Positions 13,370 through 23,403 are shown, counted from the first letter of the stretch. The stretch is DNA of 37,616 nt from Microcaldota archaeon (GCA_027449585.1 DAIDLJ010000006.1:1-37616), one strand, 5' to 3'. Notes: a model not told the origin generated them from the sequence alone. Numbers and translations: made by a program.

Positions 13370-14416
13370 TTAGGACTCGTCTAGGCGACTTTCGAGCCTT
13401 GATAGCGCTTTATGCACAAGCAGATGGTCATGCATCCTTGAATCTGAGCGTAGGGATATCCTATCTGTGGTGTTTGGCACTATTCCTTCAGCCATCTGCC
13501 AGCGCTTGTATCGGGTAAATGTAGCTTTTGCCATGGCATAGAGTTTTTGGGCAAGATCTTTGCCTCCGGATTCCAATGCTTGCTCGGACGCAGATGCGAG
13601 ATCAAAGGCAACGGTATTTAGTTCGTTTGCTGCAACGGACTTCTGCTTAAGCAGTGCCGCGAATATCTGATATTCGATGCCGTCCAGGTGCTCTTTTTTT
13701 ATCCCGGTGGCATGGGAAGTGAGCAAGTCATCCATTATGAAGTTTACTTCGGAAAAGTCTCGCGGCCTTAGTTTCTCAAGAGAGTTTAGCATTTGATTTG
13801 TATACCTTAGGTCTTCCCATAATGGGGAAAATTCGTTGTCATAACCGCCACCACTTATGTGCGTGCGATATAGGTTTTGTGAATGGTCGGCCAGTTCCCT
13901 CGCCCATTTTAAGGTGCCTGAATTTATGTTATGGCGGTCGATTATTGTAGTATCTACTATCTGCAAGTACATGGCGCTTGCCGAGAAGAGATAGCCTATG
14001 TTCTCGTGTGCCCTGGCCATGGTTAGGCTTTTTAAGATAAACTCTGATTTTAGTGACCTGGCGCTGCCTTGCGCGGAAAGTAGGGTTATTTCCGGATTTG
14101 TGTGCATGCTCTGGCTTAATTTTGAGAAGCTGTCCTGCGCCCAGGTTACTGCTTCATCTCTTGCCGCTTTCATCTCGTCTGGGCTCTTCTTCGTTGGAGC
14201 GCCGTTATCTTCCCATAGCACTCTGCTTGCGGTCTCTTCTGGGATTTTGGCGGCTTCCTTGAATGCTCCGATTACTTCTGTCTCGCTTACGCGTTTGGCA
14301 TCGACAAGATCTATCTTTGGTTGCGCTCTTCCTTTTGCATTCCTCTCTTTTGGCATGAAGACCATGAAAGGCTTCAATTTTATGATATTAAAAGGTTGCC
14401 TTGATGTTTTGGCCAA
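13370..14416 (-). CDS. Hypothetical alpha-helical cytosolic protein
   Basis: 348 aa ORF, no motif recognised. Confidence 0.65.
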   Translation of the reverse strand: MAKTSRQPFNIIKLKPFMVFMPKERNAKGRAQPKIDLVDAKRVSETEVIGAFKEAAKIPEETASRVLWEDNGAPTKKSPDEMKAARDEAVTWAQDSFSKLSQSMHTNPEITLLSAQGSARSLKSEFILKSLTMARAHENIGYLFSASAMYLQIVDTTIIDRHNINSGTLKWARELADHSQNLYRTHISGGGYDNEFSPLWEDLRYTNQMLNSLEKLRPRDFSEVNFIMDDLLTSHATGIKKEHLDGIEYQIFAALLKQKSVAANELNTVAFDLASASEQALESGGKDLAQKLYAMAKATFTRYKRWQMAEGIVPNTTDRISLRSDSRMHDHLLVHKALSRLESRLDES

Positions 14417-14446
14417 AAGTAAGCTTTAATAATCAGGCGTGGCTCA

Positions 14447-14722
14447 GTGTCTTTGATTTGCATGACATTCAAAGGATACGCAAAGAAGGTTTGGAAGGAG
14501 ATGAACGCCGAGTGGAATATGCCGGCCAAGGATAAGCTTGCCGGATCTGCTGGATTTTCTACTGCAATGGGTATCTCTGTCGGACTGCTAGCTGAACTAT
14601 CAACGCTGGGAAATGGGCTAGTCCTTGGGGCTGAAGCTGCAGGCTTTTCGCTTGGAGGAAGCCTGGTATATCACGCGGTTGGAAAAGCGGTCACGGAGAT
14701 CAAGAAGCTTAAAAGAAATTAA
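14447..14722 (+). CDS. Hypothetical small protein with hydrophobic segment
   Basis: 91 aa ORF, no family recognised. Confidence 0.5.
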   Translation: MSLICMTFKGYAKKVWKEMNAEWNMPAKDKLAGSAGFSTAMGISVGLLAELSTLGNGLVLGAEAAGFSLGGSLVYHAVGKAVTEIKKLKRN

Positions 14723-14878
14723 AGCACAAGCTTTCCAGATATAAAAAGAGACTTGGTTGAAAGCTTGGGGTATTAGGCAGGGCGCTATTGCATTAAGCCC
14801 CATTTTTCACTAAATTTTCAACACGTAATTTCAGTTTTTGTTAATTTTAGATGGCGACTCACGTAATGGTTTTTGTTT

Positions 14879-14937
14879 GCTCCCACCGGGATTTGAACCC
14901 GAGTTGCAGGGTTGAAAGCCCCGCGTCCTTGGCCGAG
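14879..14937 (-). repeat. Displaced tRNA-Glu 3' fragment (distal att site)
   Basis: gctcccaccgggatttgaacccgagttgcagggttgaaagccccgcgtccttggccgag; 2 mismatches to the intact tRNA; no D-arm/acceptor 5' half beyond it. Confidence 0.9.
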
Positions 14938-15104
14938 TTTGTCGTCCTTTTCTAGCTTCATTCTAGCACCTCAAAAACACCAAAACAAACATAAACAATT
15001 CCAGCTTTCTGAACAGTAGCTTTTCCCAAGCAAGCTATATAAGCAAGCACGGTTCAGATTTCCGATGAAACTGAACCCACAAAATTAAGCTCTTCTCGAA
15101 TATC

Positions 15105-15500
15105 TTAATCTAATTCGGATATTAGGGCTATGATTTTTTGGTAAAGCGTATTTAACGCATCACGCTTTTCTACCTGATTTATATTTTCCATCTTTGGTAT
15201 ATCCCAATGTTCTGTTTTATAGTTTTTAGGTATCAGAATGCAGTCTTTCGGTTCGCAGAGTATTATTATTTTACTTGCACTATCTAACATTGATTTAGTA
15301 AGTCTTTTTGGCTTCTGGTTGCTCATATCTATGCCGTATACTTGTTTGAGTAATAGTATTGCTTCTTCACTTATCTTATCTGCCGGCTCAGCTCCTGATG
15401 CACTTATTGCGTGATGTTTTGTTGTCATTTTATTGAATAATGCTTCTGCCATCTGGCTCCTGTATTTGTTTTCCTTGCATACGAAAAGTATAACAGCCAT
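15105..15500 (-). CDS. Low-molecular-weight phosphatase family / thioredoxin-type arsenate reductase-like
   Basis: FVCKENKYRSQMAEALFNK (CX5R P-loop), LCEPKDCILIP (additional Cys pair), EHWDIPKM similar to the ArsC EHWG(F)DDP region. Confidence 0.82.
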   Translation of the reverse strand: MAVILFVCKENKYRSQMAEALFNKMTTKHHAISASGAEPADKISEEAILLLKQVYGIDMSNQKPKRLTKSMLDSASKIIILCEPKDCILIPKNYKTEHWDIPKMENINQVEKRDALNTLYQKIIALISELD

Positions 15501-15630
15501 AATATCTTTATGTTGATAAAGTAATAAAAATGTTGTAAGATAGCTTCATAAGTGTCGACAATGCCCATTTTATTAGATATACATCAAGTAAATATCTGTT
15601 CATATGTTGTATTCCTTGGGATCGCTCAGC

Positions 15631-16464
15631 TCAGTCCATTTCTTCGGGAAGTTTATGATGCGCAGATTCAAACTGCACTGTCACATGGTTTATGCCATGC
15701 TTCTTCAGTATCTTCTCTATTTTACTTCCTTCCTTGTCAAGCTCCATTACTGTAGTCTTTCCGACAGCCGTCAAGTGCAGCGTCGCCATCTTCATATGAC
15801 TGCATAAGAGCCATATATGAAGATGATGCAGATTCGGGTATTTCTTCTTAAGCTCCGCTTCAAGTCCCGTAGTATCGTTTGGCGATGCTTCCATGAGCAC
15901 TAAAATGATCTCTTTTAGGTTTGGAAATGCCAGTGCGAGACTGATGAAGATGATTATGAGCGCAGCCAAAGGGTCGAGATAAAAAGCATGGGTAAAGAAT
16001 ATTACAACGCCGACTATTGCACCGATAATAAACCCGCTTAAATCGGCAACAGCATGTACCCAAACGCTTTTTTCGTTTATGTTATCGTGTTTCTCTGATA
16101 CTATCACTTGGTACATGATAATTAGAGAAACGGCAGAGATGATAGCCACAACAACAGGAAAGTCGTGGACATTAGAAAAATAATTGGATATAGCAATATA
16201 CCCGCTAAGCAGAGCACCTGTTATTACAAGATAAATATTTGTCATTCCTGATATTACTTCGAGCCTGTGATAGCCATAGGTATATTTGGAATTATATTTT
16301 TGGGGCTTTTTCATGACCATGTAGGCAAAAATATAGCCTACTGAATCTATAATCTGGTGGAAAGCCTCAGCTATGATTAATCCGCTGTGAGCGAATATGC
16401 CTCCGATTATCAGCACAAAAAATACGAGAAAAGATGCGATGAGTGCTTTGGTAATTATATTCAA
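15631..16464 (-). CDS. Cation diffusion facilitator (CDF) family metal efflux transporter
   Basis: AEAFHQIIDSVGYIFAY, YGYHRLEVISGMTN, VHAVADLSGFIIGAIVG (HxxxD metal sites), C-terminal cytosolic domain PNLHHLHIWLLCSHMKMATLHL. Confidence 0.93.
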   Translation of the reverse strand: MNIITKALIASFLVFFVLIIGGIFAHSGLIIAEAFHQIIDSVGYIFAYMVMKKPQKYNSKYTYGYHRLEVISGMTNIYLVITGALLSGYIAISNYFSNVHDFPVVVAIISAVSLIIMYQVIVSEKHDNINEKSVWVHAVADLSGFIIGAIVGVVIFFTHAFYLDPLAALIIIFISLALAFPNLKEIILVLMEASPNDTTGLEAELKKKYPNLHHLHIWLLCSHMKMATLHLTAVGKTTVMELDKEGSKIEKILKKHGINHVTVQFESAHHKLPEEMD

Positions 16465-17045
16465 TTAATGCACCAAATTTCCAATAATGATTGCATTATA
16501 AATCAATTCCAAGCTATTAAATCTATCCTTGGGTCGCAGAACCTCTTTTTGGCTTCGCAAAAAGGGCTGCTCCCTTAAGCCAACAACTTGGCAGTTGAAG
16601 GAACCTCCATCCCTTGAAACTACGCCAGCACGTTCAGAACTTCGTTCCTCACGTGGGCTAACGACCCAACGGTCTGTAAGCCAGCAACCTAGCAAGCGGC
16701 TGATTTTGCGGGGGGTCAAAATCAGTCTTAATGCCGCCATGTCCTACAAAGTAGCCGCAGCAGCCGTAGCCCGCCGTGCGACATCCAAAGATGTCTTAAA
16801 AGCGGGCGTAGGCTGCAAGACGTGAGCTTCTCTACATAAAGCTCTACATGGACGGCTATAATATTGATGTGCAGTAGCACGAGGGAAAAATGCCTATTTT
16901 GGAGACTTACGAGAGAGATTTCCTCTACATGGATTGGCTTAGGCATGTAGAGAACTTTGGAGCATGTAGAGAAGTCCTATTTTAGGGTTTGGAAAGCCTC
17001 GCTTTCAGGCCAACGGCTTCGCTCAAAATTAGCAATACGTTATAA

Positions 17046-17300
17046 TCAAGCGTGGTGGTCGTAGTCCACTATCGTAACCGTGCTGTTCTTATCATCTATC
17101 ACGTACTTGACCACGAAATGTCCGATATGCCTTTCCCTGACTCCGGCATACTCGCTGTGCATCCATTTGCCTACTGCATATGGGTTCTCCGCAAGCTGGT
17201 CGAAGAGCTTTACAAGCCTCTTGTAGGCCAAAGAGTCCTTCTTTACCATCTTCCTGAGCTTTTCCCTTACGCTATCTGCTAGATGCACTTCGTAGGCCAT
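17046..17300 (-). CDS. RelE/ParE-family toxin
   Basis: YEVHLADSVREKLRKMVKKDSLAYKRLVKLFDQLAENPYAVGKWMHSEYAGVRERHIGHFVVKYVIDD. Confidence 0.85.
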   Translation of the reverse strand: MAYEVHLADSVREKLRKMVKKDSLAYKRLVKLFDQLAENPYAVGKWMHSEYAGVRERHIGHFVVKYVIDDKNSTVTIVDYDHHA

Positions 17301-17316
17301 CTCTGCACCTTTATAA

Positions 17317-17511
17317 TCAGCCCCAAACGTCGCTTACGAGTGCCTTTACTGACTTGTACTTGTGTACCTTTCCAGTCCTAAGCTCCTCAAGCCCTATGTC
17401 CAAGCCGGTAACCTTCTTTTTCTTCATGGCATTGGCTATTAGTGTTATCTGGGCTTCGAGATTTCCGAGCCTCCTTTCTATCGTACTCATTTCCGTCCTT
17501 GTATTCGCCAT
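17317..17511 (-). CDS. Antitoxin of RelE-type TA system
   Basis: MANTRTEMSTIERRLGNLEAQITLIANAMKKKKVTGLDIGLEELRTGKVHKYKSVKALVSDVWG directly upstream of the toxin. Confidence 0.78.
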   Translation of the reverse strand: MANTRTEMSTIERRLGNLEAQITLIANAMKKKKVTGLDIGLEELRTGKVHKYKSVKALVSDVWG

Positions 17512-17532
17512 AATATTATTGTACCCGTGCAA

Positions 17533-18432
17533 TTATTTAAGGCTTGTTATCCAATTTTTGAGCTTTTCGGCTTTCTCCACCGAAAACGCCTCGTCCACCG
17601 CTTTGTATAGCTCATCTTTCCGCGTGTTTATGTAGGTCATAGTTGTGCTAGGATCGCTATGTCTTGCGAATCTGCTTGACAGCACCACATTCCCGTTGCT
17701 CTGGCGTGCGAAGCTGGTTATTGCATAGTGCCTCAGACTGTGCGTAGTCAGCCTGTGCAGCCGCCTAGGCGTCCTTCCGTATGACTCCTCGCTCTGGTCG
17801 TAGACTTCGTCCAGCTTTGCCGCTCGGACATACTCCCTGAACACCTTACGCACATAGTTCTTCTCAAGGAACGGCTCGCCTCTTAGGCTGTGCCCAAGCT
17901 CCGCGAAGAACACGAACCCGCCAGCTTGCGTGATCGCTTTTTCGTTCCTGTTTATGAACTCAACAGTTTGCCGAAAAAGCGGCACTGGGATAAGCATTGT
18001 ATCAATTACGTGCACCTTCTCCGTCTTCACGGTCAGCTCACGTGTCTCGAACTTTATGTCTTTCACGTTCACTTTGACAGCCTCGCCTATCCTGAGTCCA
18101 AGCTGCGCTTGATACCCAAACAACAGGCGAAACTTGTCGTTCTCTATTGCCTTGAAGAAGGCCTGCACCTCCTGTTCTGTGAAGCCCTTGTTCAGGCTTC
18201 CATATTTAGGCGGTGCGTTGCCTCTGAAACGTTTCTTTTTGATGCGGTAGATTACGGACAGGACGTCCTTGATCTCATGGAAAGTTAGTTGCGGAAGCAC
18301 CTCCTGAATGTGCTTCTTAAGTTTTTCGGGTTCGGTCTCCGTGATGGAACCGAACCGTTTGCTGCTTAATTTCTTTGCATTGGCTAGGGAACTGAACCCG
18401 AGTTTGTCGTCGAAAATCTGATTGGCTCCCAC
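17533..18432 (-). CDS. int: Tyrosine recombinase / integrase (GTG start inside tRNA-Glu 3' end)
   Basis: AQLGLRIGEAVKVNVKDI (catalytic R), THSLRHYAITSFARQ (HxxR), RHSDPSTTMTYINTR (catalytic Y). Confidence 0.93.
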   Translation of the reverse strand: MGANQIFDDKLGFSSLANAKKLSSKRFGSITETEPEKLKKHIQEVLPQLTFHEIKDVLSVIYRIKKKRFRGNAPPKYGSLNKGFTEQEVQAFFKAIENDKFRLLFGYQAQLGLRIGEAVKVNVKDIKFETRELTVKTEKVHVIDTMLIPVPLFRQTVEFINRNEKAITQAGGFVFFAELGHSLRGEPFLEKNYVRKVFREYVRAAKLDEVYDQSEESYGRTPRRLHRLTTHSLRHYAITSFARQSNGNVVLSSRFARHSDPSTTMTYINTRKDELYKAVDEAFSVEKAEKLKNWITSLK

Positions 18433-18498
18433 CGGGATTTGAACCCGGGTTGCGGGGTTGAAAGCCCCGCGTCCTTGGCCGAGCTAGACGATAGGAGC
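18424..18498 (-). tRNA. tRNA-Glu(TTC)
   Basis: Acceptor GCTCCTA/TGGGAGC, anticodon loop CTTTCAA, T arm CCGGG-TTCAAAT-CCCGG. Confidence 0.95.
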
Positions 18499-18506
18499 GC
18501 AAGCGT

Positions 18507-19007
18507 TTATACCCATATTCCATTGCACAGCATTATGCCGTATGTGGCATAGTTGACCATATCCATAAGTGTATCCTCTATCTTCTCGTCCGCAACCTGC
18601 GCGACGTTTCCATCCTTCATGAGGTTGGATACGCGCTCTATCTTGTCATTTATGCGCACTATGATGCCTATTACTCCGTATCTGAGTATGTTTAAGGTGC
18701 CGTAGTCCCTGTTCTTTGCTACTCCTATCCTAAAAGAGGCGTCGAGTATCGTATTTACATCACGCTTGTATTTTGAGCTGAGCAGTAGCAGAGCCCCGTT
18801 TCTTATCTTGTAGAAGACTCCAGAGTTGGATGGTGAGGGTTTTGTGCCTGCCATTATCTCTTTGAAGTATTCCTGGAGGGCCTCGCTTGCATCTGATGGG
18901 GAATAGCCGTCGCTAGGGTCTATGCCGTCATATAGCGCCTGCTTGAAGTTGTCGTCCCACATGATAACCATCGACGATACGAAACTCTTGAATATGGCTG
19001 GTTTCAA
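18507..19007 (-). CDS. DUF1599-like (nucleotide modification associated domain) protein
   Basis: KNRDYGTLNILRYGVIGIIVRINDKIERVSNLMK...DEKIEDTLMDMVNYATYGIMLCNGIW. Confidence 0.75.
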   Translation of the reverse strand: MKPAIFKSFVSSMVIMWDDNFKQALYDGIDPSDGYSPSDASEALQEYFKEIMAGTKPSPSNSGVFYKIRNGALLLLSSKYKRDVNTILDASFRIGVAKNRDYGTLNILRYGVIGIIVRINDKIERVSNLMKDGNVAQVADEKIEDTLMDMVNYATYGIMLCNGIWV

Positions 19008-19101
19008 TTTATAATCCTACCGCTTTGCATCTCGTTTATTTGCAGCGGTGGCGGCTGTGGGAGGTATTTTAATATTAAACGCAGATAAGTCTCTTGATTT
19101 C

Positions 19102-19638
19102 ATGATACTATCCGACTTCGATCTTGAGGGTCTGATCAAGGAAAAGCGGCTTGTTATAAAACCGTTTGAGAAGGAGATAATAAGGGAGAATGGACTTGAC
19201 CTAAGGCTTACTGATGAGGTTGCTAGGCATAACATGAAGAGGGACAGTAAATTCCTGATAGACCCTTCGGACCCCGATACGCTCAAGGACGAGTATGTGG
19301 TGGAGAGGTGCCCAAAAGGAGTGGTGATAGAACCTGGCACGCAGGTCCTGCTATCCACTATGGAGTTCATAGGGCTTCCTGACAATCTGGTTGGATTTGT
19401 AGAGCTTAGGAGCACTTGGGCCAGGCACGGATTATTCATGCCGCCTACGATAATAGATGCCGGATTTGCCGGGACGGTCACGCTCGAGGTATTCAACAGC
19501 AGCAGATTCCCAATACTGCTACGGCCAAAAGTCAGGTTCGCTCACGTGATATTTGCTACGACCCTAAATAGGGTTAGGAATGCGTATAAAGGAACTTACC
19601 TGAACCAGAGAGGAATAAAACTTCCAAAGAAATTGTAA
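19102..19638 (+). CDS. dcd: dCTP deaminase
   Basis: MILSDFDLEGLIKEKRLVIKPF...ENGLDLRL...GFVELRSTWARHGLFMPPTIIDAGFAGTVTLEVFNSS. Confidence 0.94.
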   Translation: MILSDFDLEGLIKEKRLVIKPFEKEIIRENGLDLRLTDEVARHNMKRDSKFLIDPSDPDTLKDEYVVERCPKGVVIEPGTQVLLSTMEFIGLPDNLVGFVELRSTWARHGLFMPPTIIDAGFAGTVTLEVFNSSRFPILLRPKVRFAHVIFATTLNRVRNAYKGTYLNQRGIKLPKKL

Positions 19639-19661
19639 GCTAATGCCAAAGTGGCATTAGC
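19639..19661. terminator. Hairpin between convergent dcd and PRC-barrel genes
   Basis: gctaatgcc-aaagt-ggcattagc perfect 9-bp stem, 5-nt loop. Confidence 0.5.
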
Positions 19662-19689
19662 CTTGCGCCATTGCGCCAAAAAAGTCCGC

Positions 19690-19968
19690 TTACCTTGCCA
19701 GATCGTCCACTTCCTCCTTCCTTGCCTCCTGGGAGGTTGTGAGAGGTGATGATACGAGCACTACGTCACTGACGTTCTTTACGTTCTTGTAGAGTATGCT
19801 CTTATTCTTCAACACGAGTTTCGAGTCGCCCTTGGCTGTCTTCCAAGGAACCATCAAAAGCCTGCTGAGTTCTCCTCTTTCAAGGTCAATTATTATGTCC
19901 TGGACTTCTCCAAGGTATTGACCAGCATCGCTGTATATATCCATACGATATATTTCTGAGAGTTTCAT
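19690..19968 (-). CDS. PRC-barrel domain protein
   Basis: MKLSEIYRMDIYSDAGQYLGEVQDIIIDLERGELSRLLMVP. Confidence 0.85.
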   Translation of the reverse strand: MKLSEIYRMDIYSDAGQYLGEVQDIIIDLERGELSRLLMVPWKTAKGDSKLVLKNKSILYKNVKNVSDVVLVSSPLTTSQEARKEEVDDLAR

Positions 19969-20092
19969 GATATTCGCCCTGATAATATAGATGGATAAGC
20001 ATTTATAAATCTTGGTAGCCGTCGGTGAGACTTCCACTTATCGCGCCTTGACCGAAGCTTAGGCTTAAAAGTTTGCGCTGGCATTTATACTT

Positions 20093-20968
20093 GTGCCAAA
20101 ATCTGTTGAGAATGCAGTAGCGGACAGCTTCGAAGTGGTGAAGGAGAACTACCTCAAATTCCTGCTGATATACCTATTCATGGGCGCCGTGAGCATTGTT
20201 GCTGTGCTGGTTTTTGTCGTTCTCATTTTTCTGGGTTTGGTAGGGGGCTTGACCCTTGGAAATATCGGACTGATTGTAGCCGCTGTGGTTGTCGGATTAA
20301 TAATATTGCTGCTTATGTCGCCTTTTTGGGTTGGAGTATATTATTCCATGGTGTTTCAGGGCCTTGACGCAAAGAGGATTTCAATATTTGATGCGATGGG
20401 CGTGGCAAGGGGGAGATACTTTAGCCTGCTGCTTGTTATGTTCTTGCAGGTCGTAATCTATCTGGTTATCTTTGGCTTGATATTGTCGCCTTTGATAGGC
20501 CCGGTGCTGGGACTAATAAATAGTGGTGGAAGCGCGTCTATTGCATCGGCGATTATGGGGCAGATAATTAAGCTACTCCTCATTGGCACTTTGGTGTTTG
20601 TGGGCCTGATGATAGCCGCACTGGTGTTGCTACCACTACTTTACGAAGCTACAGCTTTAGTCATGATTGAAGGCCTGGGTGGCGTTGACGCAATCAGAAG
20701 AAGTATAGAGATAGGAAGGGAGAATTTCTGGAAGATTGTCTGGCTCATGACCGTGTTCGGATTGGTTGTGGGGATGATATATGTTGTGGAGTGGATAATC
20801 ACCGCGGTATTTGGAGTAATGGGCCACGTCCTTGGCATTGTTGTCGGGGCTGTCCTCTCGGTGCTGGTTTCCTCTCTTGTAACCGCGTGGTCGTATGCCC
20901 TGCAGATAGTCTTCTACCGTGAATTTGTAGGGGGAAGAAAGCGCGGTGGACTTGCAAAGGACGCATAA
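20093..20968 (+). CDS. Polytopic membrane protein (GTG start)
   Basis: 291 aa with multiple TM segments; EGLGGVDAIRRSIEIGRENFWKIVWL motif. Confidence 0.75.
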   Translation: MPKSVENAVADSFEVVKENYLKFLLIYLFMGAVSIVAVLVFVVLIFLGLVGGLTLGNIGLIVAAVVVGLIILLLMSPFWVGVYYSMVFQGLDAKRISIFDAMGVARGRYFSLLLVMFLQVVIYLVIFGLILSPLIGPVLGLINSGGSASIASAIMGQIIKLLLIGTLVFVGLMIAALVLLPLLYEATALVMIEGLGGVDAIRRSIEIGRENFWKIVWLMTVFGLVVGMIYVVEWIITAVFGVMGHVLGIVVGAVLSVLVSSLVTAWSYALQIVFYREFVGGRKRGGLAKDA

Positions 20969-21006
20969 TTGATGACTAATGCCTGATGCAATTTGCAGGC
21001 CAGAGC

Positions 21007-22173
21007 TTATGGTTGCATCCAGTCTATCTCGTAATACTCGTTCTCGCTTCCCTTGAGCCTTATCTGTTTTACATGGTAATATGTAACAGCAGTCTCTCTG
21101 TCGGTTATTGCAAGTATTAGATCCAGCTTCATTTCCCGCGCGGCATTTATCGCAGAGGCGAATTCGCTTCCGCCTATATACTCCTCTTCGCTCAGGGACA
21201 GCATGGCATATTTGGGCTGCTCTGTTTCTGGGCTGTCTGCATCTCCGCCGTGCCTGTGGTAGAGGACATAGTCTATCTGCGTCTTCCTGCTCTTCGTAGC
21301 CCCTGGGACTGCAAGTATGAATGTCTTTCTCACTGAATGCGCGACCCTTATTACGCGCGCCCATTCGGAGATGAGAAGCTTGGATTCCTTTGGAAAAACA
21401 TGTATTACGTGCTTAGAATGCGTCCATGAAGAGCCGTCGCTCTGCATCGGCCTTGCTCCTGGGAAGTAGACCCTGAAATGCGTTCCGAACTTGAAGCCGG
21501 TCTTTATCACATACCCGCGAAGCCGCCAATCGGAGTATACGCCATAGAGCTTCTCGAAATCATTCCTTCTTGAAACCGCGAGCCTTAGTGCCTCTTTGTC
21601 AGTTGTGTTCTGCAATGAGAGTATGCCTTCCGAGGCCAGAAAGAGCGTCTCATATATGTCTAGTTTGTTGAGCTTGCCGCGGTCCGAGGCCTTGTAGGAG
21701 CCAAACTGGCCGAACCAGAGCTCGTCGTAGATCCGCCTGCCATTTTCTGCATCGTCGACTATTGTCATAAGCTCCGACTTGAAGAACGTTCCTGAAAGCT
21801 TCATGTCAGGCAGCCTAAGCTGCTGGACAGGATACTCTTTGGGCTGGGCCTGCTGCCTGCCTGCGTGCTTGAATGGATCCTTTATTACAAGTCCGCGATC
21901 GCGCCAGTCCTTATAGGTGAAATATCTTGCAGCGAACTTATCCTTCTTCCAGAATCTTGATGCGAGTTTGTTGAACGACACCTCTTCACCGGCCAAAGAG
22001 CACGTCGCGTTCCTAACGTCAATAAGATATAGCGCCTCTTCGGCGGAGAGTTCGATGCGCTGCTTCGAGTAACTGCCGAAATGGCCTTTCCTGAGAAGGT
22101 CGATGCTGGACTGGTCGGCGACTGTCAGGCGGCCTTTGCTTTGCAAGATCTGTATCATAGTATAATTGCTCAT
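21007..22173 (-). CDS. endA: tRNA-splicing endonuclease EndA, long form resembling the ARMAN three-unit (epsilon2) type
   Basis: VYSDWRLRGYVIKTGFKFGTHFRVYFPG...WTHSKHVIHVF...HSVRKTFILAV: Tyr/His/Lys catalytic positions; repeated N-terminal unit (YFTYKDWRDRGLVIKD) and extra C-terminal unit; 388 aa. Confidence 0.88.
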   Translation of the reverse strand: MSNYTMIQILQSKGRLTVADQSSIDLLRKGHFGSYSKQRIELSAEEALYLIDVRNATCSLAGEEVSFNKLASRFWKKDKFAARYFTYKDWRDRGLVIKDPFKHAGRQQAQPKEYPVQQLRLPDMKLSGTFFKSELMTIVDDAENGRRIYDELWFGQFGSYKASDRGKLNKLDIYETLFLASEGILSLQNTTDKEALRLAVSRRNDFEKLYGVYSDWRLRGYVIKTGFKFGTHFRVYFPGARPMQSDGSSWTHSKHVIHVFPKESKLLISEWARVIRVAHSVRKTFILAVPGATKSRKTQIDYVLYHRHGGDADSPETEQPKYAMLSLSEEEYIGGSEFASAINAAREMKLDLILAITDRETAVTYYHVKQIRLKGSENEYYEIDWMQP

Positions 22174-22201
22174 TGAAGTTTAATATTGGCTGATGGGCTT
22201 A

Positions 22202-23038
22202 CTATCTCTTGTGGAATGAGAGATAGTATATTGGCGCTACTAGCTCAATGAATGCAGCTATCCCTATGCTGATTATGAAAGATAGTATGACGCCAAGAAA
22301 TGGTATCGCCTGAAGTATCCTTGAAAGGAATAGGGCGATGGCAACAACAAAGTAGGATGCCACAATAGTGCCAAATATCCTAAATGGCTCTTTCTTTCCC
22401 AGATTGATGCTCATTGAAAGCGCTCTTTTTGCGTCTGCTGCATCGAGCACGATTATTGGTGGGCCGAGCCAGAGTAGAACAGAGACTGCAATGTATAGGA
22501 TGGCTAGCGCTACAAGCATTATCACTAGAAGGCCGGAGAGATTGATGTAGGATTGGCTGCTTATGGCCGTTCCGGACAGATACGGCTGTATTATCGTGCT
22601 ATTTGCTAGGAGGAAGATTGGACCCAGGGTTACAAGAAGCAGCAGCAGGAAGGCCAGGGTAACAGCTATCTCGTAGACCAGAAGGTCCTTGTATCTTGAA
22701 AGGGCTACCTTGAATGAATGACGCAGCGATGGCCGTTTTGGATACTTACGCAGGTTATAGCAAAGGTCAATATACGTGCCTTTGACCATGACGCCGGCAA
22801 GGAATACTAGAAGAGATATAAGGGCGAGCAATGGCGCTACCCTTGTGAGAGCTAGCGTGACTCTTGAATACAGTTGATGATTCGACAGGACCTGACCAGG
22901 TATTGCACTAAGAAAGAGGTGGCTTGCGACGTATGCAACGATGATGGCAAAAAGCGAGAGCATGAGCGCTGGGAATAAAAGCTTTGGATGTCTTTTAAGC
23001 GCTTTTAGCGAATCGGCTACTATATTGAATATGTTCAT
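22202..23038 (-). CDS. Polytopic membrane protein, likely paralogous to 20093..20968
   Basis: ADAKRALSMSINLGKKEPFRIFGTIVASYF resembles ...VDAIRRSIEIGRENFWKIVWLMTVF. Confidence 0.7.
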   Translation of the reverse strand: MNIFNIVADSLKALKRHPKLLFPALMLSLFAIIVAYVASHLFLSAIPGQVLSNHQLYSRVTLALTRVAPLLALISLLVFLAGVMVKGTYIDLCYNLRKYPKRPSLRHSFKVALSRYKDLLVYEIAVTLAFLLLLLVTLGPIFLLANSTIIQPYLSGTAISSQSYINLSGLLVIMLVALAILYIAVSVLLWLGPPIIVLDAADAKRALSMSINLGKKEPFRIFGTIVASYFVVAIALFLSRILQAIPFLGVILSFIISIGIAAFIELVAPIYYLSFHKR

Positions 23039-23403
23039 GGTTCTCTTATGCCAACATTAATTAAAAAACTTTTCCAAGTCAATAAATCGGCAGTAAAGCG
23101 TTTTGCGTTCATTAAATCTTTGGTGAATTGGTCCCGCGTTGTTGCATGCCCAGGAAAGAGAACCTCAAAGGAATGGATCATAATTGCAAATGGGACGCTA
23201 TTGAAATAATATAAATTCACAGATGTCTTGCTTGTCTTTGCTGTTGTGGCGGATGTGTGATGATGCTTTAGCTCCGAAAGGATCTATGGCTGGGCGCAAT
23301 TTATGCCAAGTAGTTTATACCACAACCAGTAGCATATTTCCATAGTTTTGGATATTTGATTTGGTTTAAAAGCTTTGATTTTGATATAGTATACGGGATT
23401 AAG

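Follow-up and report, generated by a model that had tools for sequence, protein, structure and literature searches.

Archaeal integrases termed suicidal (SSV-type or type I, in the definition of Badel et al. 2021, PMC8371274, which we adopt) are recognized by an attP site that lies within the integrase frame and by the resulting int(N) and int(C) segments at opposite ends of the integrated element; integrases of the pNOB8-type, by comparison, are intact after integration. All suicidal integrases (SSV, pTN3 and pT26-2) have been placed in one PF16795 superfamily with a single inferred origin, and they have been linked to hyperthermophiles; neither Micrarchaeota nor DPANN is named in that study (PMC8371274). 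An SSV1-like split integrase has also been reported for the thaumarchaeal element NitEve-E3 (PMC6563490). We found no description of Micrarchaeota elements of such a design in open-access full text.

Here, we describe a locus in a 37,616-nt stretch of DNA from a small archaeal genome (the window; all coordinates are counted from its first letter). The locus very probably represents a cargo-carrying integrative element that has its attP site within the 5′-terminal part of its own integrase gene and silences itself upon insertion.

A precise insertion in tRNA-Glu

The host of the element is a 0.85 Mb MAG (86.7% complete), and the contigs closest to the window are those of Micrarchaeota. An initial annotation of the window had proposed an element integrated at tRNA-Glu in a small archaeal genome, based on a 59-bp direct repeat (14879–14937 versus 18425–18483) with an intact tRNA-Glu on the right and an orphan fragment on the left. 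The sequence, ARAGORN and Rfam agree with this description, and neither program calls a tRNA at the left copy. When extended, the repeat spans 69 nt at 91% identity. The attachment sites and the element that they bound are

14879–18483, minus strand: the integrated element in full, running from attR to attL with a repeat-to-repeat length of 3,546 bp; the site is unoccupied in G036 (L111)
18424–18498, minus strand: intact tRNA-Glu(TTC), called by ARAGORN and Rfam, with its 3′ part (18425–18483) forming attL
14879–14937, minus strand: attR, an orphan tRNA-Glu 3′ fragment identical to attL at 57 of 59 positions

The insertion is confirmed by a congener (G036) in which the two flanks are joined at one intact tRNA-Glu (L111:10731–10805) and the 3,546 bp are absent. 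Window segments 18425–23121 and 14387–14937 are contiguous in this genome with nothing between them, and the flanks share ~90% DNA identity with those of the window. Because the G036 locus is uninterrupted and has a single tRNA-Glu, the window insert is a precise 3,546-bp insertion, genuine rather than a product of chance. Indeed, the general marks of a tRNA-targeted element are all present: the repeats are direct, the tRNA has been restored and a relative has the site unoccupied. The empty tRNA-Glu site that the initial annotation had advised seeking in related genomes therefore exists, and neither of the findings it had named as counter-evidence, a lack of empty sites or a left repeat that is an independent relic, is seen. 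G036 provides the only clean empty site that can be demonstrated, because the DUF1599 and 348-aa proteins of the flanks are rare within the family.

Two further observations concern the surroundings of the insertion. Next to the empty site in G036 (L111:11400–11900), an IS200/IS605 TnpA-like ORF is located at the contig end. In the window itself, a 583-aa ORF at 939–2690 combines long TSTS and NAATN repeats with two apparent Hint-like repeats downstream and appears to encode an unusual secreted protein.

Position of strand exchange

The attR site differs from attL at positions 14902 and 14908, and the tRNA at the G036 empty site agrees with attL at both. The variants in attR must therefore have arrived with the element, and strand exchange probably occurred 3′ of these positions in the tRNA, within the final 23 nt of the repeat. 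In one relative (L035), an element with a TTC-type attP is found inside a tRNA-Glu(CTC) gene that has retained the CTC anticodon of the host, which places exchange 3′ of the anticodon; the att sites of this element are perfectly identical only over tRNA nt 48–75. The recombination point is probably located in the T-arm/acceptor part of the tRNA-Glu 3′ end. For relatives in tRNA-Ala the att ends are undefined, mostly because the contigs stop earlier.

We also note that GACGACAA is present on both sides of attP (window 18387–18411 and 14932–14946) and that a second T-loop-like word, of the GGGTTCAAATC type, occurs in the integrase gene 47 nt past attP in the tRNA-Glu elements. The GACGACAA flanks and the additional T-loop-like word are possible integrase-binding arms or relics of an older att site.

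An integrase gene that runs through attP

Three features extend beyond the initial annotation: an integrase frame that continues through attP, a promoter on the attR side and a folded block between the toxin and CDF genes. The parts of the integrase gene are

14879–14961, minus strand: int(N), consisting of an ATG (14961–14959) and eight codons (MKLEKDDK) leading into attR; the joined frame is open and the start motif occurs in 15 genomes
14967–14972, minus strand: ribosome-binding site GAGGTG of the integrase, from the sequence, with GGTG-type sites in relatives
14940–15086, minus strand: predicted integrase promoter block, with a TATA box (TTATATA, 15036–15042) and a palindrome (GGTTCAG...CTGAACC, 15051–15077)
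17533–18432, minus strand: int(C), a tyrosine recombinase (PF00589), 299 aa when read from a GTG within the tRNA

When the ends of the element are joined in silico, a single open frame extends from the ATG at 14961 through the eight codons and ~20 codons of attP into the integrase, giving a protein of 324 aa in the joined circle. The ATG, the GAGGTG, the TATA box and the palindrome are all located at the end of the element opposite int(C), beside the orphan tRNA fragment. After integration, promoter and start are therefore no longer joined to the rest of the integrase gene.

This arrangement recurs in other genomes. The promoter block is 71–98% identical among them (90–98% for the best). Of 15 loci, 14 have the TATA box at a like distance, and most have the palindrome. 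Ten two-ended elements are available, including that of the window; the degenerate L058 and L065 were excluded from the frame count. All eight of the remainder, one of them in tRNA-Val, have an in-frame ATG and ribosome site upstream of the repeat, versus 3–5% of trials when the same test is applied to random upstream DNA of those loci, although the eight share kinship and do not amount to eight independent trials. In L044, attP is translated in a different frame and the junction is nonetheless in frame. The int(N) start motif, M(K/E)LE(N/K)D(D/A)K, is common to the tRNA-Glu and tRNA-Val elements (L043 and L177). Used as a DNA pattern, it is found in 15 of the order's 164 genomes (12 genera), whereas the reversed pattern has no match in the same 164 genomes. 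Nearly every copy runs into a tRNA 3′ fragment, and none into an intact integrase.

Both hallmarks of the SSV-type are thus found here: attP falls within the integrase frame in all eight elements when these are joined in silico, and int(N) and int(C) occupy opposite ends (14961–14879 versus 17533–18432). The pNOB8-type hallmark of an intact integrase after integration is not, since the promoter, ribosome site, ATG and eight codons stay at attR. A case for a classical pNOB8-type integrase, which would start inside or after attL and survive integration, with the open attP frame being incidental, can be built on int(C), whose 299 aa retain the entire catalytic domain, and on an in-frame GTG in the tRNA acceptor stem at attL. 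GTG or ATG codons there could initiate the 299-aa protein, so silencing of the integrase is not certain. However, no ribosome site is seen ahead of the GTG and tRNA 3′ processing would sever it; it is at the other end that an ATG with its ribosome site and TATA box is conserved, in frame only by way of attP in eight of eight elements. We regard a pNOB8-type integrase as very improbable, and infer that a gene with attP near its start would lose integrase expression once the element is integrated.

Affiliation of the recombinase

The window integrase matches Phage_integrase (PF00589, E = 8e-13). Ten members of the integrase family match PF00589, with no match to PF16795 in these ten at E ≤ 1, and the catalytic R, HxxR, H and Y are retained across the family. 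Two NCBIfam models, NF040815 (XerA) and TIGR02249 (integron integrase), are matched below their curated cut-offs. A 21-member integrase profile finds the XerC-like 4A8E and XerA 5HXY structures but not the structures of SSV1 integrase, which exist in the PDB (PMC8371274). Having attP in the gene but belonging to PF00589 rather than PF16795, the integrase is suicidal-like in its working and falls outside that clade by the family test. Judged by these profile matches, the window recombinase is XerA-like and outside PF16795. A separate observation is that the integrase at L035:8001–8888 has lost the HxxR arginine (HSLMHY for HSLRHY), and this copy is therefore probably inactive.

Cargo, spread and transfer of the family

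Five genes are present in the element, all on the minus strand. Those other than the integrase are

17317–17532, minus strand: putative antitoxin of 71 aa, from its position, with a likely start at ATG 17511
17046–17300, minus strand: ParE/RelE/YafQ-type toxin (PF05016, E = 4e-6; TIGR00053 and TIGR02385 below cut-off)
15631–16464, minus strand: CDF cation-efflux transporter, cargo (PF01545, E = 1e-26; TIGR01297)
15105–15500, minus strand: protein with an ArsC-like LMW-phosphatase fold, cargo (PF01451, LMWPc, E = 1e-12; CX5R loop, C-X4-C)

Pfam matches bear out the one-strand set of tyrosine recombinase, toxin, CDF transporter and ArsC-like protein that had been annotated initially. Its toxin–antitoxin module is retained in part: the RelE-type toxin stands, whereas the antitoxin, which matches no family, is called by position. 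The pair occupies a variable slot between the integrase and the folded block and may stabilize the element. The ArsC-like protein scores 53.9 bits on the TIGR02691 model (arsC, thioredoxin-coupled arsenate reductase), against a cut-off of 174.3. Its closest solved relative is the ArsC structure 1Y1L (E = 6e-13), in which the C-X4-C aligns with equal spacing. Going by these gene families, the cargo would provide metal resistance or tolerance.

The metal genes are, however, nearly unique to the window genome. A search of the other 78 genomes of the family finds no full-length relative of the window CDF, and the nearest relative of the ArsC-like protein, 70% identical, is in a single one of those 78 (G052). 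The view first put forward, of an element that is essentially a metal-resistance island, is not supported by these results, and the cargo differs in every relative. What is constant is the integrase with attP, plus the folded block. Relatives of the integrase are found in 52 of the 79 family genomes, and the two-ended elements span 1.7–7.1 kb. On the basis of their gene content, relatives across the order carry other cargo, often consisting of defense genes: an HNH protein (L035); an OLD/Gabija-like ATPase/TOPRIM with type IIG restriction–modification (L036, 9824–14524); ParA, a DDE transposase and a T5orf172 protein (L037); an M.Eco57I-type methylase (L041, 3447–5855); a Schlafen-type helicase, PemK/MazF and MazG (L042, 10976–14557); and LemA with a 2′-5′ RNA ligase (L043). 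L044 has an integrase and small ORFs with no further cargo.

The integrases are 87–94% identical while the RadA proteins of their hosts are only 65–78% identical, which argues for transfer between genera and families. This bears on whether the element is a decayed, immobile island inherited with the chromosome. Neither a free circle nor an intact attP was detected, a scan of IMG/VR for the int(N) motif was empty and numerous relatives elsewhere are broken, several with internal stops, all of which would suit such an island. The window element nevertheless has its integrase, its promoter half and the two att sites intact, with repeats that still agree at 57 of 59 positions, and near-identical integrases are present in other genera. 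Decay is thus a quite unlikely explanation, and we retain that of a transferable integrative element. Matches of 55–59 bp to the terminal part of the integrase gene (window 17529–17586) occur at G000:C9:19293–19351, G036:C6:22442–22500 and G044:C14:1712–1767; these stretches, in three genomes of the genus, may be the common remnant of an earlier element.

No replication, capsid or conjugation gene was recognized in the window element, for which the initial annotation had likewise listed no replication or capsid gene, or in the relatives with scanned cargo. This lack could point to a virus satellite, or to a cassette that needs a helper virus or plasmid to replicate and transfer. No packaging or virus-like gene is seen either, though, an integrase scan of IMG/VR revealed no virus-linked copy, and the family is defined by its integrase and block and not by virus parts. 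We consider dependence of this kind unlikely.

A conserved folded block

The second constant part of the family is

16560–17020, minus strand: conserved folded noncoding block of ~400 nt, with an aligned core at 16598–16975 and model R1 at 16759–16875

The block sits between the toxin and CDF genes, downstream of the integrase, and is found at >25 loci by nhmmer. Within its own family, 21 of 30 model matches are positioned 122–1265 nt downstream of an integrase or integrase fragment on the same strand. Model R1 occurs in 53 of 301 genomes of the phylum, every one of them in the same order, and no Rfam match is obtained at E ≤ 1 with 4,227 models at a permissive threshold. The fold z is −5.0 for the minus strand and −3.4 for the plus strand. 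In the alignment, 98.9% of cells are paired, six pairs are changed on both sides versus 1.6 in shuffles, and the consensus energy is −77.9 versus −10.1 for shuffled columns.

Several direct and inverted copies of CTCTACATG are contained in the block, and a second clade has ACTAAAGACC in their place. Repeated words that change together by clade in this way would behave as iterons (protein-binding) or as alternative stems. A hairpin loop of the block is found in both orientations, as a C-run or a G-run (A1 alignment; L051, 8788–9178; L052, 8866–9233; L115; L116). The L051 loop CCCCCGCC and the L052 loop GGCGGGGG are exact reverse complements, and the two-way loop suggests inversion at the DNA level. 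L031 and L033 have nearly equal integrases but blocks of different clades, indicating that integrase and block are exchanged separately.

Is the block a structured RNA (noncoding, or else belonging to the integrase transcript as its 3′ part) or a DNA site such as an origin? Covariation within the stems and an excess of G-U over A-C on the integrase strand (61:12 cells) are consistent with RNA. When counted per pair, however, the excess is reduced to 19:11 (P = 0.2), and the folding energies favor neither strand; for these reasons we do not take the G-U excess as proof of RNA. The hairpin loop in both orientations fits a DNA-level inversion, and the shift of the repeated words between the two clades is iteron-like. 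An RNA is a substantial possibility that we rate somewhat below even, and a DNA site is slightly favored. As for the role of this constant backbone part, our guess is a replication or maintenance site.

A 16-nt core of the block was also tried as a search word and rejected; its 16 contigs approximate the chance expectation and none fits the block profile. Some copies of the block (L114, L116, L117 and L118) have no same-strand integrase just upstream. Two of these, L117 and L118, have rows of tRNA T-arm-like fragments nearby and resemble graveyards left by repeated integrations.

A model for integration and its implications

Our model draws on the insertion with its empty site and att repeats, on the frame that is open across the joined ends and recurs in relatives, and on the swapped cargo. 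In the circular form, the conserved promoter, with its TATA box and upstream palindrome, would drive the complete 324-aa integrase from ATG 14961 through attP. This integrase would recombine attP with the 3′ end of tRNA-Glu, restoring the tRNA, and insertion would strand the promoter at the opposite end, along with the ribosome site and the first codons (the start and eight more). In the integrated state the integrase gene would then be cut off and the element locked in. Excision may be provided in trans by the intact integrase of a related incoming element, by analogy with the SSV2/pTN3 precedent (PMC8371274).

A broader proposal is more tentative, and we give it a nearly even chance of being correct: that this is a XerA-like suicidal design of independent origin, carried by an order-wide family of tiny, cargo-swapping elements, in which severing of the gene serves as an on/off switch and the block as a maintenance or replication site without an element-encoded replication protein. 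If true, a second recombinase family would have the gene-breaking layout, implying that the design evolved twice and is favored for a reason; one-shot control of integration is a possible one. The family also maps the movement of defense and metal genes in Micrarchaeota, whose gene transfer is little known, and reveals an unclassified conserved folded element.

Comparison with known systems

Like SSV1, pTN3/TKV4 and pT26-2, the window element has an archaeal host and carries attP within the integrase gene, which integration splits into int(N) at one end and int(C) at the other. Unlike those elements, its recombinase is of the PF00589/XerA-like kind with no PF16795 match. The location of attP differs as well: it lies at the extreme 5′ end of the gene, so that the promoter, ribosome site, start and eight codons are removed, whereas a protein domain is removed in the SSV-type. 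The Micrarchaeota host is also unlike the hosts named for SSV-type elements in PMC8371274.

Thaumarchaeal cryptic integrated elements are similar in having an integrase, variable cargo and no virus genes, but their att sites are mostly short (median 17 bp) and their median size is 17 kb (PMC6563490). The window family, in contrast, has a 59-bp att, elements of 1.7–7.1 kb, and one common integrase family together with the folded block. With pNOB8-type elements, the window element shares a tyrosine recombinase adjoining a restored tRNA gene; the pNOB8-type integrase remains intact on integration, whereas the window integrase gene is parted from its 5′ end and promoter, which stay at the far side of the element. 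XerA and the integron integrases provide the closest recombinase models and structures, and differ from the window integrase in that the latter targets tRNA genes from an attP site in its own gene.
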